A stretch of 64,000 bases of DNA from a gamma proteobacterium symbiont of Ctena orbiculata (GTDB lineage: Bacteria; Pseudomonadota; Gammaproteobacteria; Chromatiales; Chromatiaceae). Where the stretch lies: positions 1 to 64,000 of the forward strand of contig NATV01000113.1 in the NCBI GenBank assembly GCA_003094535.1, written 5' to 3'. Of this stretch, positions 135 to 21,949 are shown one piece after another (position 1 is the stretch's first letter; every line of letters begins with the position of its first letter). The notes under the pieces are model-generated. The model was not told the origin of the DNA and searched no databases. It saw nothing but the letters and a program-made list of their open reading frames with translations. The translations under genes were made by a program, and so were the position numbers.

Positions 135-1946
135 GTGATTGAGAACCTCAGAAATATCGCCATCATCGCCCATGTCGATCATGGCAAGACCACCCTGGTC
201 GATGAACTGCTGAAGCAGTCGGGAACCCTTGGCGATCGTTTTGGCAATGTGGAACGGGTCATGGATTCGAATGACCAGGAACGGGAGCGGGGTATCACCA
301 TCCTCTCAAAGAACACCGCGATCCGCTGGAACGACTATCGGATCAACATCGTCGATACGCCAGGACATGCCGACTTCGGCGGCGAGGTGGAGCGCGTGCT
401 CTCAATGGTCGATTCCGTGCTGCTGCTGGTCGATGCCCAGGAGGGGCCGATGCCACAGACCCGATTTGTCACGCAGAAGGCATTCAAGCATGGTTTAAGG
501 CCGATCGTGGTAGTGAATAAGATCGACAAGCCGGGCGCGAGACCCGACTGGGTCATAGATCAGGTGTTCGAACTCTTCGACCGTCTCGGTGCTACCGACG
601 AGCAGCTCGATTTTCCCATCGTCTATACCTCCGCGGTTAATGGCTATGCCGGGCTCGACAACGAGGTGAGCGATGGCGATATGCAGTCGTTGTTCGAAAC
701 CATCGTTGATCACTGCCCGGTTCCCGAAGTCGATCCCGACGGACCCTTCAAGATGCAGATCTCCAACCTCGATTACAGCAGCTATGTCGGTGCGATCGCC
801 GTGGGCAGAGTGACCCGGGGCACCGTGAGGCCGAATCAGCAGGTGACGGTGGTTAAATATGACGGTGAACTACATCGCGGCAAGATCGGTATAGTCTACG
901 GCTACCTCGGCCTGGAGCGCTTCGAGGTAGATCAGGCGAGTGCAGGCGACATCATCGCGATCACCGGCCTGGAGGCCCCCAATGTCTCCGATACCCTCTG
1001 TGATCCAGAGGAGGTGGAGGCGATGGCGCCGCTGACGGTGGATGAACCCACGGTGTCGATGACCTTCCAGGTCAACACCTCGCCCTTTGCCGGGCTTGAA
1101 GGCAAATATCTTACCTCAAGGCAGCTCAAAGAGCGCCTCGAACGGGAGCTGATACACAATGTGGCGCTACGGGTTGAGGAGGGTACGGATCCCGAGAAAT
1201 TCAAGGTCTCCGGGCGCGGCGAGCTGCACCTCTCGGTGTTGATCGAGAGTATGCGCCGTGAAGGATTCGAACTGGCGGTCTCGAGACCGGAAGTGATCTT
1301 TCGCGAGGTGGAGGGTGAGGTCTGCGAACCCTATGAGCAGTTGACCGTGGATGTGGAGGAGAAGGATCAAGGCAGTATCATGGAGGCATTGGGCACCCGC
1401 AAGGGGGAACTCAAGGATATGGTACCTGACGGCAAGGGTCGGGTGCGCCTCGATTACCTAATCCCTTCCAGGGGGTTGATCGGATTTCAGACCGAGTTTA
1501 TGACCACCACATCGGGTACCGGCCTGATCTATCATGTATTCGATCACTATGGCCCGACCCAGCCGGGCGGGATTGCGCCGCGGAAAAATGGCGTCCTGAT
1601 ATCAAATGGCCAGGGCAAGGTGCTGGGTTACGCCCTTTTCAATCTTCAGGAGCGGGGCAGGCTCTTCTCATCCCCCGGTGAGGAGGTCTACGAGGGACAG
1701 ATAGTCGGGATCCACGCCCGGGAGAACGATCTGGTGGTCAATCCTCTGAAAGGCAAGCAGCTTACCAATATACGGGCCGCCGGCAAGGATGATTCGATCA
1801 TTCTAACCCCTCCGCTGCAATACAGTCTCGAGCAGGCGCTGGAATTCATCGAGGATGATGAACTGGTGGAGGTGACGCCCAGTGCCGTCCGCTTACGCAA
1901 GAAGCATCTCAAAGAGCATGAACGCAAGCGGGCATCAAGGGAGTAG
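135..1946 (+). CDS. typA: Translational GTPase TypA/BipA
   Basis: Ribosome-associated GTPase of the elongation factor family that helps large-subunit assembly and growth under stress. The 603 residues match the usual family length. The N-terminal G domain has G1 (AHVDHGKT), G3 (DTPGHADF) and G4 (NKID) motifs, followed by EF-Tu-like domain 2, EF-G-like domains III and V and the BipA-specific C-terminal domain. The start is GTG at 135, with a TAAGG ribosome site about 8 bases upstream; the protein then begins [10 protein letters not shown] as in other BipA proteins. It is a single gene with its own promoter; the next gene on this strand begins 312 bases later. Identification is firm. Confidence 0.97.
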
Positions 1947-2021: not shown

Positions 2022-2148
2022 CAAAAAGAGAAGCCCAACTGCAATCCATGCAGTTGGGCTTACAGTCGTCGGCTTGGTTGGCTAAGCTACTCGTCCCTGT
2101 GCTCTCCTGAGCTCTGAGTCCTGGGGGTACATCCCTGATGACGACAAC
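2022..2148 (-). ncRNA. Candidate RsmX/Y/Z (CsrB-like) small RNA sequestering CsrA/RsmA
   Basis: Read on the minus strand, about 127 bases end in a perfect 11-bp hairpin (2032-2042 with 2050-2060, 7-base loop) followed by CTCTTTTT, a Rho-independent terminator that faces away from both flanking plus-strand genes. The RNA carries five GGA motifs, each preceded by CA or CAN: at 2130-2137 (CAGGGATG), 2119-2123, 2105-2109 (an AGGA tetraloop closed by GCTC/GAGC), 2094-2099 (ACAGGGACGA) and 2044-2050, in the terminator loop. Two match the RsmA/CsrA consensus (A/U)CANGGANG(U/A) exactly. GTCGTC near the 5' end can pair with GACGAC before the terminator (2140-2145 with 2065-2070), closing the domain. 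A TATTAA -10 lies at 2149-2154. Size, motif spacing and terminator loop fit RsmZ-type RNAs. The exact 5' end is inferred. Confidence 0.72.
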
Positions 2149-2222
2149 TTAATATTGACACAAAATGTAACTTTTACTGTGGGATTCTGCACACATTATT
2201 TGTGAGATTTTTCTCTAATCCT

Positions 2223-2240
2223 TGTAGGATTTTTCCTACA
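2223..2240 (-). promoter_or_regulatory. GacA/UvrY-type upstream activating palindrome for the small RNA
   Basis: TGTAGGATTTTTCCTACA is an 18-bp perfect-armed palindrome with 6-bp arms and a 6-base spacer. It matches the known GacA box TGTAAG-N6-CTTACA at five of six positions in each arm. It is centred about 84 bases upstream of the inferred 5' end of the Rsm-like RNA, a sensible place for an activator site. It lies just before the true pip start. Confidence 0.6.
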
Positions 2241-13888: not shown

Positions 13889-16240
13889 TTAATTGGTCTT
13901 GGTTTTGGTGGAGAAATAGTCCTTGAATTTGCCTGTCTCCTCAAGTAGTGCTTGAATTCTTTGCTCGATATCATTTGCATCCACTGGTTCTTGAGTTAAG
14001 GATTCTTTGAGTGAGACCGCGCCAATGTATATAGAGGTGGCGCCGCTCGAACCGGCTGAGCCCGCTAGTTTATGAGCTGCCTGGTATAGCGCGGCTCGGT
14101 CACCTTTCTCGAGGGCGTCGCGCATGGCCCCTTCACAGCTTGGGAGCATATCGAGAAATTCCTCGAGTATCAGGCCAGCGGTTTTATTGTCATTCTCCAC
14201 ACTGGCGAGTGCGGCCTGCTGATTATACATGGCCGATTCATCTCCAAGCTTGGAATCGACTGTTTTTGCAGCGGCGGAGTCGTAACACTCACCGGACCAC
14301 TTGCGTATGATTGAATAGAGCTGGTCGGGTAGATAGGGTTTGGCCAATAGGTCCACCATACCCGCAGCGAAGACATCCTGTTGTTTCTGCGGTAGGATGT
14401 GCGCGGTAACGGCAATGATCGGCAATTCTTCCGACTTATGAACCGTGCGAATTCTTCTGGCCGCCTCAATACCGCTCATTCCCGGCATTTCAAGATCCAT
14501 AAGGATAAGGTCGAACGTCTGTTTCTGGATCACCTCCAGGGCTTCATATGCGCTCGATACGGCTACCATATTCGCACCCTTTTTGCTCAGCAGCGTGCTG
14601 GCGAGTGTCAGGTTGACTTGGCTGTCATCGACAACGAGGATAGTCAATCTGCTGAACAGGGGATCTCCGTTTTCCTCCTTGTCCTGAGACTCGGGCGAGG
14701 AGGGCGTTTTTTGCGGCACGATTGCCGTCAGGCCGGACTCGTTTACAGATTTTGCTTTTTCAAGACGTAGGCGGGTAATAAATGTTGAGCCCCTGCCTGG
14801 CGTGCTTGTCAGCTTGATATCACCGCCCATCAGATCTGCAAGGCGCTGAGCGATGACAAGACCGAGACCCGTACCTCCATAGCTGCGTGTTAGCGACCCG
14901 TCACACTGTTGAAAGGGTTGAAACAGCATGGATTGCTGTTCCGGTGTGATGCCGATGCCTGTATCAGAGACGGTAATCTTAAGTACTACCTGTTCGTCCC
15001 TTTGATCCTCCATTTCGAGCTTGACATTGACGCTTCCGGTGTCAGTGAACTTGATCGCATTCCCAACCAGGTTGATAAGCACTTGCCGAAATTTGGCGGG
15101 GTCACCAAAAAGTATCGCCGGGATATCATCCTCAACTGAGGTTGTGAGCGTAAGGCCCTTCTCCATCGCCTTTGGAGTAAAAAGCACTTCGACTCCATGA
15201 GTCAGGGTTTGCAATGCAAAGTTGCTGCAGTCCAGGGACAATTTTCCAGCTTCCATTTTGGAGAAATTCAGGATGTCATCAATAATCTGAAGCAGGCTCT
15301 GAGCTGAGCTGATAATGATCTCTGTATACTCATCTTGTTGATGGTCCAAAGTTGTTTTCTTCAAAAGATGAGCAAATCCGATAACTCCGCTCATCGGTGT
15401 GCGGATTTCATGGCTCATGGTGGCGAGGAAGTCACTTTTTGCCTGGCTCGCGGCCTCGGCTTCATTCTTCGCCGTATTTAATTCCCGGGTGCGTTCCGTT
15501 ACCTGACGCTCTAAATCCTGATGATAAGCGGCAAGTTTGCTGTCATGTTTTTGAATGCGGTCAAGCATGGCATTGAAGCCATCCACCAGGCTTCCAAGTT
15601 CATCATTGCTTAGGCGTTTTGCTCGATGTGTGAAATCCCTCCTTACCGCCACCTTTTTCATGGTGCGAAGCAGTTGCTGAACTGGTTTGGAGATCAATCG
15701 TTGGAAGCGGTTGGAGAGCCAGAATGCGAATACCATGGAGACGATGTAGACGCCAAGTACAAGAAGCGACTGTTGAAGCAGAATCGATTTGGCTCTACTC
15801 ATATCGCCGACAATATGCAGCATGCCGATGCTTTCGCCGTCGAGTAAGATAGGCTCCTTGACGGTAATCAGTCTGAAGTAGGATCCGACCGAGGTGCGCT
15901 CTCGATCGAGCTTGCTGGTCGCTTCGAATTTGGCGGAGGCGTAGCGGGCAAACCTGTCGCCATTAGTCAGAACGATCGTCGCTTCAATAACATCTTGTTG
16001 TGTCGACAAGGTTGCCAAAATGTCGTTTGCGGTATCCTGGTCGCTGAAGGTGATTGCAGCGCTACTGTTCGCTCCAAGCAGCAATGCCAGCGATTGCAGG
16101 CGGGTTGCCGCTTCACTGCGCGCCGAGTTGATCTCAAAGACCATGAACAATAGCAGGCTGAGTAGCAGAACCGTCGCTGTTATCATCAGTATGATGGCTT
16201 CAAGCTTGTGTTTTATTGAGGCGTTGCGCAACAGATCCAT
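13889..16240 (-). CDS. Hybrid sensor histidine kinase (CHASE8-HAMP-HisKA-HATPase-REC-Hpt)
   Basis: 783 residues: membrane helix (15-35), periplasmic CHASE8-like sensor (about 38-145), second helix (155-177), HAMP, coiled coil, HisKA with phospho-acceptor His277 in [15 protein letters not shown], HATPase with N, G1 and G2 boxes ([22 protein letters not shown]), receiver with Asp582 in [10 protein letters not shown], and Hpt with His723 in [10 protein letters not shown]. The layout is that of BarA/GacS, but the CHASE8 sensor and the neighbouring YfiR and TonB-receptor genes point to a different input. It is the last gene of a three-gene minus-strand operon, nine bases after yfiR. Confidence 0.92.
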
Positions 16241-19855: not shown

Positions 19856-21949
19856 TCACCCAGAGAGAAGTGTTTGGAATAGGGTCTCTTCCTCGCTTTG
19901 TTGAGACAGGTTGGTTTTCGGCCAGGTAAAATAGAAGCATGCTCCTTCACCAGGTTCCGACCTTAATTTTATTGTGCCTCCATGTTCTTCCACAATCTTT
20001 TTTACCAACGCTAGGCCGATACCGGTGCTGCTTTCATAATCACTCGACTCGAGGGTTTGGAACATCAGGAATATTTTTTGATGATATTGCGGCGGGATTC
20101 CCTGGCCGTCGTCACAAACCGAGAACTGATAAAAACGGTCACCATCTTCACACCTGATGCGTATCTTTCCATTCTTGCCGCCATGGTGTTTCAGACTGTT
20201 AACGATAAGGTTTGAGAATACTTGATCCAGTTGTAGACGGTCAGCCGTTAACCTGGGCATCTTGCCCTTGACCTTGATTGAGAATCCAGCGGCAGGTGAT
20301 AGGGTATCGATTATCTCTTCAACCAGCTGCCGGCTATCAATACTGGTTTCCTGAGCGGATGTTCTGCCTACTCTTGAATATTCCAACAGGCCCTCAATCA
20401 GGTCATGCATTCTTTTCACACGATCGCGGAGCAGGGCAAGCTGCTCCCTCGAGGCGTCATCAAGCTTATCCTTGAGATCCTCTTCAATCCACTGTGCAAG
20501 ATTCGAGACCGCCCTCAATGGTGCTTTCAGGTCGTGCGAGGTCACATAGGCAAACTGTTCGAGGTATTGCGCCCTGCGCTCGGCTTCGGCGGTACGGTTG
20601 GCGATATGGTGTTCAAGGGTTTCATTCAATCGCTGCAACTGCTGCTCAGCCGATTTGCGCTCGACCACCTCCTGGTTGAGGGCCTGCACCACCTCCCATA
20701 ACTGAGAAGTTCTCTCCTCGACTTCAAGCCTGACCTGTCTTGCGCGGCCTACGAGGGTGGCCACATAGATGGTAAAAAGTAGAGTAAAGGCCATGCCGCC
20801 GAAAAAGATGACCCAGCTGCTCCAGGTGTTGACGGTGAATTTACCTGATGCGCTGTTGCAGATAATTTGCCATTTCTGGGTTCCGACGCTGATCTCCTGG
20901 GTATAGGAAATGGCTGCGCTCCCCTCGCCGGAACCGACATGAGACCCATCAGCAAGCCTGGTGCGGTGACTGTAGAGCAGGCGTTCATCCTCGCCTCCGT
21001 GATTTTGGTAGAAATGGATATCGATACCGGCAGGGCGCAGGCTCTCCAGAGCCCGCTCGATTATCTCACCAACAAAGAAAGTGCCGATGGCAAAACCTTT
21101 AATGGAAGCAGCGGACAGAGATGGCTGTTCCTTCGTACTCTCGTCGGCTTTAAAAAAGACCGGGGCCGCGACCATGATGCCGGATTTGCGCTCTCCGTCG
21201 TCATTGAGATAGAGGCCGGGAGATACCCGCATCTCCCCTGACGACTCCGCGTCGCTCAATAGGCTGTAAGCGGTAGGATCTGTGCCGATGTCGAGTCCAA
21301 GTAGCTGTTTGTTGAATTGATAGGGTTGTATATAGAGTACCGGGTAGTAGACAGGTCGTTTTGAACTTTTGGCAAGTGCTCCGGAGTCATCCCGTTCCAG
21401 GATCTCAAAGGGCGGGAAGCTCTCGCGGGCCTTCTCTGTGAAGCGGCTGCGCATCTCGCTAGACACCACAGGCACCCACTCCAGGGATTTGATCCCGGCT
21501 TGGTTCTTCAGCGCTGGCCCGACGAACTTGCGAAATTCGCGTCGACCGACCGTTTCAGAAGCCTCGAAAAAACTGGCAATATCGATAACGATGCGAAGAG
21601 AGTGTTCGATCTCCCGCTGAATGACAAGGATTCTGTCCTGGGATGCCTCCCTGAAAGCGATTTCAACCTGGCTTTTTTCCCATCGTATCGACTGTACGAA
21701 AAGTGCAAGGGTGATCGCGAGACCCATTAGCGCGACCAGTACTACCGGATAGTAGCCCCACCATATCGACCTGGGATCGGGGCTCTTCTCCGTTGTTTTC
21801 TGCTTTGCGATCTTTGTAAGATACCGATCCGACAGGCGCTGTTTGATGCGTGCAGTGGCAGCCTGCAAGTTGTCTACGAGATGATTGAATTCGTTTGCCC
21901 TAGCCATGTCTGCAGGAGTGGTGTTGGCAGGCCCTACTGTTGGTGTCAC
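19856..21949 (-). CDS. CHASE-domain sensor histidine kinase
   Basis: 697 residues from GTG 21949: a short cytoplasmic N-terminus, membrane helix (about 67-87), extracytoplasmic CHASE domain (about 105-310, with ASFFEASETVGRREFRKFV), second helix (about 365-390), coiled coil, HisKA with His472 in YVTSHDLKAPLRAV, and HATPase (SNLIVNSLKHHG, DDGQGI, TGIGLALVKKI). The HisKA type is the bacteriophytochrome-like class that pairs with Rcp1-type receivers. ATG 21907 is an alternative start. CHASE domains often bind small ligands; the ligand here is unknown. Confidence 0.9.
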   Translation of the reverse strand: MTPTVGPANTTPADMARANEFNHLVDNLQAATARIKQRLSDRYLTKIAKQKTTEKSPDPRSIWWGYYPVVLVALMGLAITLALFVQSIRWEKSQVEIAFREASQDRILVIQREIEHSLRIVIDIASFFEASETVGRREFRKFVGPALKNQAGIKSLEWVPVVSSEMRSRFTEKARESFPPFEILERDDSGALAKSSKRPVYYPVLYIQPYQFNKQLLGLDIGTDPTAYSLLSDAESSGEMRVSPGLYLNDDGERKSGIMVAAPVFFKADESTKEQPSLSAASIKGFAIGTFFVGEIIERALESLRPAGIDIHFYQNHGGEDERLLYSHRTRLADGSHVGSGEGSAAISYTQEISVGTQKWQIICNSASGKFTVNTWSSWVIFFGGMAFTLLFTIYVATLVGRARQVRLEVEERTSQLWEVVQALNQEVVERKSAEQQLQRLNETLEHHIANRTAEAERRAQYLEQFAYVTSHDLKAPLRAVSNLAQWIEEDLKDKLDDASREQLALLRDRVKRMHDLIEGLLEYSRVGRTSAQETSIDSRQLVEEIIDTLSPAAGFSIKVKGKMPRLTADRLQLDQVFSNLIVNSLKHHGGKNGKIRIRCEDGDRFYQFSVCDDGQGIPPQYHQKIFLMFQTLESSDYESSTGIGLALVKKIVEEHGGTIKLRSEPGEGACFYFTWPKTNLSQQSEEETLFQTLLSG

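Follow-up and report, generated by a model that had tools for sequence, protein, structure and literature searches.

A predicted CsrA-decoy RNA family with complementarity to the csrA leader in Candidatus Thiodiazotropha and its relatives

Decoy RNAs of the Csr and Rsm systems are described in a review as acting on the CsrA protein (PMC7652899). Three articles give TGTAAG-N6-CTTACA as the GacA/UvrY site (PMC4950607, PMC4682653, PMC11837529); the GacA box of rsmY lies at -75 bp (PMC4950607), rsmX occurs in tandem copies in Pseudomonas brassicacearum (PMC7911923), and for E. coli CsrB and CsrC an 18-nucleotide (nt) inverted repeat is bound by phosphorylated UvrY (PMC4682653). For Pseudoalteromonas fuliginea, one article reports a few predicted, imperfect mRNA targets of the Csr small RNAs Pf1-Pf3 and a separate antisense RNA against csrA mRNA, and it lists McaS, Spot 42, and similar E. 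coli RNAs as binding CsrA with one, two, or no GGA sites (PMC11882849). Here, we analyzed a 64,000-nt stretch of DNA (the window; contig NATV01000113.1, positions 1 to 64,000) from a gammaproteobacterial symbiont of Ctena orbiculata, and conclude that its minus strand, next to typA, very probably encodes a GacA/UvrY-activated CsrA-decoy RNA of the CsrB/RsmXYZ type. We observed the anatomy of such an RNA, its conservation and covariation, a box at fixed spacing, complementarity to the csrA leader, BarA and UvrY types in the same genome, and CsrA in relatives. From these features we infer that the predicted decoy would be transcribed from a promoter bound by UvrY and would be able to bind CsrA. 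A BarA-UvrY phosphorelay would yield phosphorylated UvrY, which would turn on the small RNA (sRNA) promoter via the palindrome at 2223-2240; the transcript would end at the intrinsic terminator at 2061-2031 and would offer its CA(N)GGA sites to CsrA dimers, taking CsrA off its mRNA targets.

Anatomy of the RNA and its class

The features are listed below, where A1 is the alignment of the genus (Candidatus Thiodiazotropha, by named relatives), A2 is a 38-row alignment, and R1 is a covariance model built from 35 copies.

2223..2240, minus: GacA/UvrY-box-like palindrome TGTAGGAAAAATCCTACA, 18 bp, exact TGTARG-N6-CYTACA
2022..2152, minus: predicted CsrB/Rsm-type small RNA gene at the typA locus; R1 match of 146.7 bits in its own genome, the window copy itself being part of the R1 training set
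2140..2145, minus: closing stem, 5' half GTCGTC, pairing with GACGAC
2132..2134, minus: GGA site 1 (CAGGGATG); G, G, and A invariant in A2
2119..2121, minus: GGA site 2 (CAGGA)
2105..2107, minus: GGA site 3, AGGA tetraloop of a GCUC/GAGC hairpin in the minimum-energy and centroid folds
2094..2096, minus: GGA site 4 (CAGGGACG); G, G, and A invariant in A1
2072..2082, minus: GCCAACCAAGC motif, of which the csrA-leader element is the reverse complement; varies little in A1 and A2
2065..2070, minus: closing stem, 3' half GACGAC, pairing with GTCGTC
2031..2061, minus: intrinsic terminator hairpin, with GGA site 5 in its loop and CTCTTTTTG after the stem
2045..2047, minus: GGA site 5, terminator loop

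With a predicted 5' end at about 2148-2152, the RNA would be roughly 127-131 nt long. Read 5' to 3', it runs from GTCGTC through four GGA, a hairpin with CCAACC in its loop, and GACGAC to the terminator with the fifth GGA. All five GGA are preceded by CA or CAN, and CAGGGATG and CAGGGACG both match CANGGAYG, the CsrA motif as printed in PMC11837529. The fold shows a GCUC-AGGA-GAGC hairpin as well as the closing stem and places a GGA in the loop of the terminator. A single terminator, of 13 pairs followed by CTCTTTTTGT, faces the minus strand. The features that the first-pass annotation listed for this locus, its location between two plus-strand genes included, all proved correct; it had overlooked the TGTAGGAAAAATCCTACA box, the GCCAACCAAGC motif, the other copies, and the complementarity to the csrA leader. 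The arrangement of the CA(N)GGA sites is strongly nonrandom, with a spacing as high in 1 of 5000 shuffles, and five of them within 127 nt form the sole such cluster on both strands of the 64 kb. Sites 1, 4, and 5 are largely invariant in relatives, and the CCAACC of GCCAACCAAGC is predicted to lie mostly in the loop of its small hairpin (unpaired probability 0.69-1.0). The box, the sole exact TGTARG-N6-CYTACA match in 64 kb, is separated by 18 nt from the hydrolase start codon.

By size, by GGA sites in loops, by an upstream GacA box (TGTAAG-N6-CTTACA), and by the occurrence of tandem copies, the RNA resembles RsmX, RsmY, and RsmZ of Pseudomonas; it shares with E. coli CsrB and CsrC the character of a GGA-rich decoy under BarA-UvrY, and with Pf1-Pf3 that of a Csr sRNA outside the model species. 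Unlike RsmX/Y/Z, it lacks a covariance-model match and lies in typA and folK neighborhoods; it also carries GCCAACCAAGC with its csrA-leader complement. CsrB and CsrC are longer (369 and 246 nt, with 22 and 14 GGA) and lack GCCAACCAAGC even at two mismatches; their longest runs of complementarity to their own csrA leader, 8 for CsrB and 7 for CsrC, are no more than shuffling gives (means 7.8 and 7.5). The window RNA has a run of 12, where 1000 shuffles average 7.0 and never pass 11. Pf1-Pf3 differ in their 9-25 GGA, and the csrA antisense RNA there is cis-encoded and distinct from the decoy. McaS, which also base-pairs with mRNAs, Spot 42, and similar RNAs differ in not being GacA-box genes, and to our knowledge their known mRNA targets do not include csrA.

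The locus presents a predicted short RNA with several GGA, some of them in hairpin loops; a GacA/UvrY palindrome upstream, by sequence match; an intrinsic terminator in an intergenic stretch without a conserved open reading frame (ORF); and UvrY and BarA types in its own genome, with CsrA in relatives. The RsmX/Y/Z-CsrB identity given to it at first pass holds for anatomy, inferred function, conservation, and box, but the covariance-model search then suggested gave no match: at gathering and relaxed thresholds, Rfam has neither a CsrB-clan (CL00106) nor an RsmZ (RF00166) match at the locus, the own genome, searched with RF00166 only, gave no match, and 14 further loci (relatives and the second copy) yielded nothing at E <= 1. 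E. coli CsrB and CsrC were both detected as controls. Rfam otherwise matched a tRNA elsewhere in the window and, weakly, families of no relation; an RsmV match of 8.2 bits did not lie within the sRNA. The sequence comparison supports placing the sRNA as RsmZ/CsrB-type by anatomy and inferred function, outside the detectable Rfam CsrB-clan families; no Rfam model detects the predicted decoy, which forms a new family within a known kind of RNA.

The missing Rfam match is one of several results that weigh against the decoy assignment. In the minimum-energy fold, hairpin loops hold two of the five GGA, and site 1 is partly paired, both of its G pairing with CCC. The GGA count by itself is near chance (5, where shuffles average 2.6; p = 0.05; at least five are reached by 6.8% of 127-nt windows), and the folding energy is modest (z = -1.99, 6 of 200 shuffles equally good). 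A simple scan found no sigma-70-like promoter at the sRNA; this would fit an activator-dependent promoter, yet supports nothing. Both signaling partners fall under their NCBIfam cut-offs: the UvrY/GacA-type protein encoded before uvrC in the own genome reaches 270.9 bits with its best model (cut-off 280), and the full-length BarA-type kinase 727 bits (cut-off 890; next-best protein 371.5). Finally, csrA was not found in the window's own assembly (G000). In the near relative G019, whose CsrA is identical to that of E. coli at 51 of 60 positions, csrA lies between tRNA-Ser and a 407-amino-acid ORF, which we take, from the expected gene order, to be lysC. One G000 contig ends inside the tRNA and the other starts just short of the 407-amino-acid ORF; between these two contig ends, csrA and its leader would lie in an assembly gap, and on this ground we reject a loss of the Csr system. 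A canonical csrA (~90 bits) is present in 18 of the 21 genus relatives, G010 and G017 having a divergent csrA alone and G012 none above cut-off.

That the locus is no sRNA at all but a typA terminator or 3' structure, a hydrolase-gene attenuator, or a small ORF is very improbable: the stem also exists on the plus strand and the window copy has a 16-codon ATG frame, but the T-run faces the minus strand, many relatives read GACG at the position of that ATG, copy lengths of 127-134 nt do not change in steps of three, and the set of box, RNA, and terminator is found again in the tandem arrays as well as at the folK copy.

The two flanking genes are:

135..1946, plus: typA (BipA-type GTPase), TIGR01394, 939.5 bits
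2259..3209, plus: alpha/beta hydrolase of the proline-iminopeptidase kind, divergent, ATG at 2259, named by inspection

Between the box and the RNA start (2153-2222, minus strand) we also observed another imperfect palindrome (TGTGTGCAGAATCCCACA), the inverted repeat GAGAAAAATCTC, and repeated occurrences of TGTGTCA, which are possibly further regulator sites. Elsewhere in the window, two sensor-kinase-like stretches on the minus strand give partial BarA-model matches, at 13925-15790 (336.5 and 149.9 bits) and at 19868-20608 (68.6 bits); neither is the genome's best BarA match.

Copies, covariation, and relatives

Upon searching 56 genomes with a 251-base query, we obtained matches in all 22 genus genomes (own included) and, beyond the genus, scraps of 34-41 bases in two genomes. 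The 37 typA-locus copies extracted, 34 of them distinct, come as a single copy in 17 genomes (at a contig end in G008) and as four tandem copies in five. The first-pass annotation had named loss of the GGA motifs and terminator in close relatives as grounds for giving up its proposal; no such loss was seen, since both are kept in the copies of all 21 other genus genomes and, despite diverged sequence, in other genera. At E <= 0.1, R1 detects relatives of the sRNA in 55 of the 116 genomes of the family, and a second model, R2, finds a second sRNA copy in the own genome (G000:C116:44024-44159) with six GGA and a degenerate box, between folK and DUF1015 (genes named by inspection). This second copy is found at 63-74 bits in 22 of 22 genus genomes, its neighborhood having been read from the own genome alone; counts for both models include sequences used to build them.

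In A2, the first, fourth, and terminator-loop GGA, the GCCAACCAAGC motif, and both stems are kept nearly throughout. Across the 38 sequences, 97.2% of cells in the closing stem and terminator are paired, with 84 double-change cells against 28.1 in shuffles; none of 500 shuffles reached as many, and sliding the partner abolishes the signal. In the closing stem every cell is paired, with CG/UA covariation.

A pattern scan of named genomes gave 75 matches in 71 stretches, from Ca. Thiodiazotropha species, other lucinid symbionts, Sedimenticola, a Solemya symbiont, Lamellibrachia and Escarpia endosymbionts, Ca. Thiosymbion oneisti, and Chromatiales and gammaproteobacterial metagenome-assembled genomes (MAGs), among others. 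We divided these matches by record title, a split made after the features had been seen, into 63 relatives with 2-8 GGA before the terminator, 61 of which have a box with at most three mismatches, and 12 from unrelated phyla; the latter lack a box and have 0-1 GGA, and were therefore used as chance controls. The terminator region contains a GGA in 63 of 63 relatives against 5 of 12 controls. The box is exact in 31 relatives, has one mismatch in 12, two in 11, and three in 7, and is missing in 2, one of them cut by a contig end. Its position relative to the closing stem is nearly fixed in the 61 boxes: -73 to -75 in 42 and -95 in 17, with -71 and -86 once each, so that the two main spacing classes are 20-22 nt, or about two helical turns, apart. 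The neighborhood includes typA in 45 of the 63 relatives, folK and DUF1015 in 5, and none of the four tested genes in 13; the hydrolase is near the sRNA in 28. One of the 63, L182, titled Candidatus Polarisedimenticolaceae, was kept because of its typA and hydrolase neighbors, which accompany the sRNA as in the gammaproteobacterial records; it is probably a mislabeled or mixed MAG.

In a class-wide search, R2 matched 36 of 369 genomes at E <= 0.01. We checked 28 of these loci for motif and box and inspected 11 in sequence, and weak matches were not counted as family members: L114, L117, L125, and L128 (25.8-30.2 bits) look unrelated, and L109 (33.6 bits) has GGA without motif or box. In distant families, L122, L106, and L131 hold related RNAs with GCCAACCAAGC or GCCAACCA; no csrA leader was located for these three. 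Among 29 non-own typA loci from other families (one with 5 nt of flank only), three (L241, L247, L257), from three other gammaproteobacterial families, have a GacA-type box and a GGA-rich stretch downstream of typA, without GCCAACCA; judged from these sequences, Csr RNAs may have been linked to typA before the motif arose.

The tandem arrays (L015, L017, L013, L014, and L016, from G010, G007, G002, G016, and G012, respectively) have four copies each, with an exact or near box at most copies. Their hydrolase-proximal copy, with 3 GGA and a degenerate box, reads GCAAAACAAGC instead of the motif in four of the five, and looks from its sequence as if decaying or specializing. A second, divergent 62-bit CsrA occurs in G002, G007, G008, G010, and G016, largely the four-copy genomes (in G008 the sRNA is at the end of a contig, and no CsrA match in G012 passes the cut-off); this overlap may reflect shared descent rather than coupling. 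We note the divergent paralog (MLVLTRHLNQSLQVGEAVTL...) at L267:4868-5119, L268:4499-4750, and L271:4023-4274, in genomes with tandem arrays, and a CsrA variant with a long basic C-terminal tail at L269:3556-3864 and L270:3139-3474 (G006, G017), which in G017 is the sole CsrA above cut-off.

Complementarity to the csrA leader and its competing readings

Nearly all sRNA family members carry GCCAACCAAGC, and the csrA mRNA leader holds its exact reverse complement, the element GCUUGGUUGGC, 75-111 nt before the csrA start codon. The element is exact in 18 of 18 canonical csrA leaders of the genus (11 + 7), which were not selected for it; G010, G012, and G000 offer no canonical leader to count. Of the other family genomes with the sRNA, 7 of 7 have it with no more than a single mismatch (exact in G023, G024, and G031; one mismatch in G028, whose sRNA was found by R2 and not R1, G029, G032, and G034), G032 having another csrA leader without the element. 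These counts exclude G040 and the G030 paralogs (L325, L326), and the exact element at another csrA fragment of G030 lies outside the 7 of 7 because it was found by targeted search. The element was found in neither of two leaders from family genomes without an sRNA match (G025, G027) and, even at two mismatches, in none of 13 leaders from other families, all 13 without an R2 match. Neither the G051 leader nor that of G048, the one genome with a typA-linked box and GGA whose csrA leader was read, has it, and a two-mismatch match in G037 lies far upstream and is irrelevant. As in base-pairing sRNAs, the complementarity to a specific mRNA is conserved.

Together, these findings make a second layer of function probable, though clearly less secure than the decoy role itself: by its sequence, GCCAACCAAGC would pair with GCUUGGUUGGC in the 5' leader of csrA mRNA, and the RNA would act on both the CsrA protein and its message. 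Between the window RNA and the G019 leader, the longest predicted run comprises 12 perfect pairs; in none of 75 control upstream regions (of mechanically listed ORFs of at least 150 amino acids) does it exceed 9. The net co-folding energy is -17.5 kcal/mol, and the control minimum is -15.6. Raw whole-RNA duplex energy did not separate the csrA leader (30 of 75 controls and 29 of 1000 shuffles were as low), and net co-folding and longest run were adopted after that result had been seen. Folding prediction places the 5' half of the element within a hairpin at the leader 5' end, and pairing would have to open this hairpin; most likely it would do so and alter csrA mRNA stability or translation. 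Pairing that lowers csrA would reinforce titration, whereas pairing that raises it would give a buffer.

The strongest competitor, which we nevertheless consider unlikely, is that the RNA is a decoy only. In that case, GCCAACCAAGC would serve the RNA itself, as part of its fold or as an Hfq or RNase contact, and the csrA-leader element would exist for another reason, such as a DNA-binding site shared by both genes. The motif does belong to a small GCUU/AAGC hairpin of the folded RNA, and four further results favor this explanation: the closed 5' half of the leader element; the leaders of divergent csrA paralogs (G017, G006, and G002, the last judged by GCTTGGTTGGC), which lack the element; a permutation of cognate against swapped partners in 24 genomes, in which 204 of 2000 permutations were as good; and the imperfect overlap of sRNA and element. 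With regard to the permutation, its nonsignificance might be expected because the core hardly varies, and cognate covariation is not proven. With regard to the overlap, 27 of the 116 family genomes have the pattern joined to a csrA start and none has it reversed, the 27 being a lower bound because the element had to be exact and 64-94 nt from that start. By this test, 25 genomes have both sRNA and element, 30 of the 55 sRNA-positive genomes show no exact copy of the element at this distance, 2 genomes with the element give no sRNA match, and 59 have neither.

Against a decoy-only RNA stand the same 116 genomes, in which the element tracks the sRNA (Fisher p = 3.2e-8, a statistic that ignores shared descent), and the 41 genome pairs in which the two stretches lie in complementary orientation. 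The core carries a substitution on one or both sides in 7 of these pairs: four stay paired via G-U or compensated letters (G029, G032, G077, and G049), and three are not fully paired (G028, G034, and G152). The changes in G077, G029, and G032 are to G-U-compatible letters. The best covariation case is G049, from another family, which keeps 13 contiguous pairs via changed letters (CCCCUCCAACCAA with UUGGUUGGGGGGG); its predicted duplex of -37.1 kcal/mol compares with swapped means of -28.5 and -25.7, a penalty of ~9-11. Furthermore, 17 contiguous pairs, at least one G-U included, are available in G005, G013, G014, and G018.

Since the complementarity is symmetrical, either RNA could be the target, and the csrA mRNA could instead be the regulator, its abundant leader acting as an RNA sponge, so that the decoy would be captured or destroyed and free CsrA would rise. 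This direction appears rather improbable to us; in its favor, the csrA transcript is very abundant in hospite. In a study of Ca. T. endolucinida in clam gills, whose transcript table omits hypothetical proteins, csrA has a median of 78,450-85,249 transcripts per million; among the 36 shared top transcripts of that table it ranks first in two of the three hosts, and in the remaining host rbcS alone exceeds it (PMC13137333). With csrA a top transcript in this symbiont, the stoichiometry of the two RNAs may matter for the proposed pairing of the decoy with the csrA leader.

A possible RNA-RNA loop within the Csr system

Overall, we think it probable, on the sequence comparisons above, that this is a dual-function family, combining a CsrA decoy with a csrA-leader pairing of 11 to 17 bp, which would extend across sulfur-oxidizing symbionts and free-living relatives and whose dosage would be raised to four tandem copies in one group of symbiont species, largely together with a second CsrA. 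In the open-access literature searched, as far as its text was available, complementarity of a decoy to csrA mRNA is described nowhere, and no source names an RNA antagonist of CsrA in these symbionts. If true, a decoy that also targets csrA mRNA would form a direct RNA-RNA loop within the Csr system, adding to a well-studied global network a direct link and a circuit not seen in E. coli. The sRNA family and its two gene neighborhoods offer a handle on lifestyle switching of chemosynthetic symbionts.
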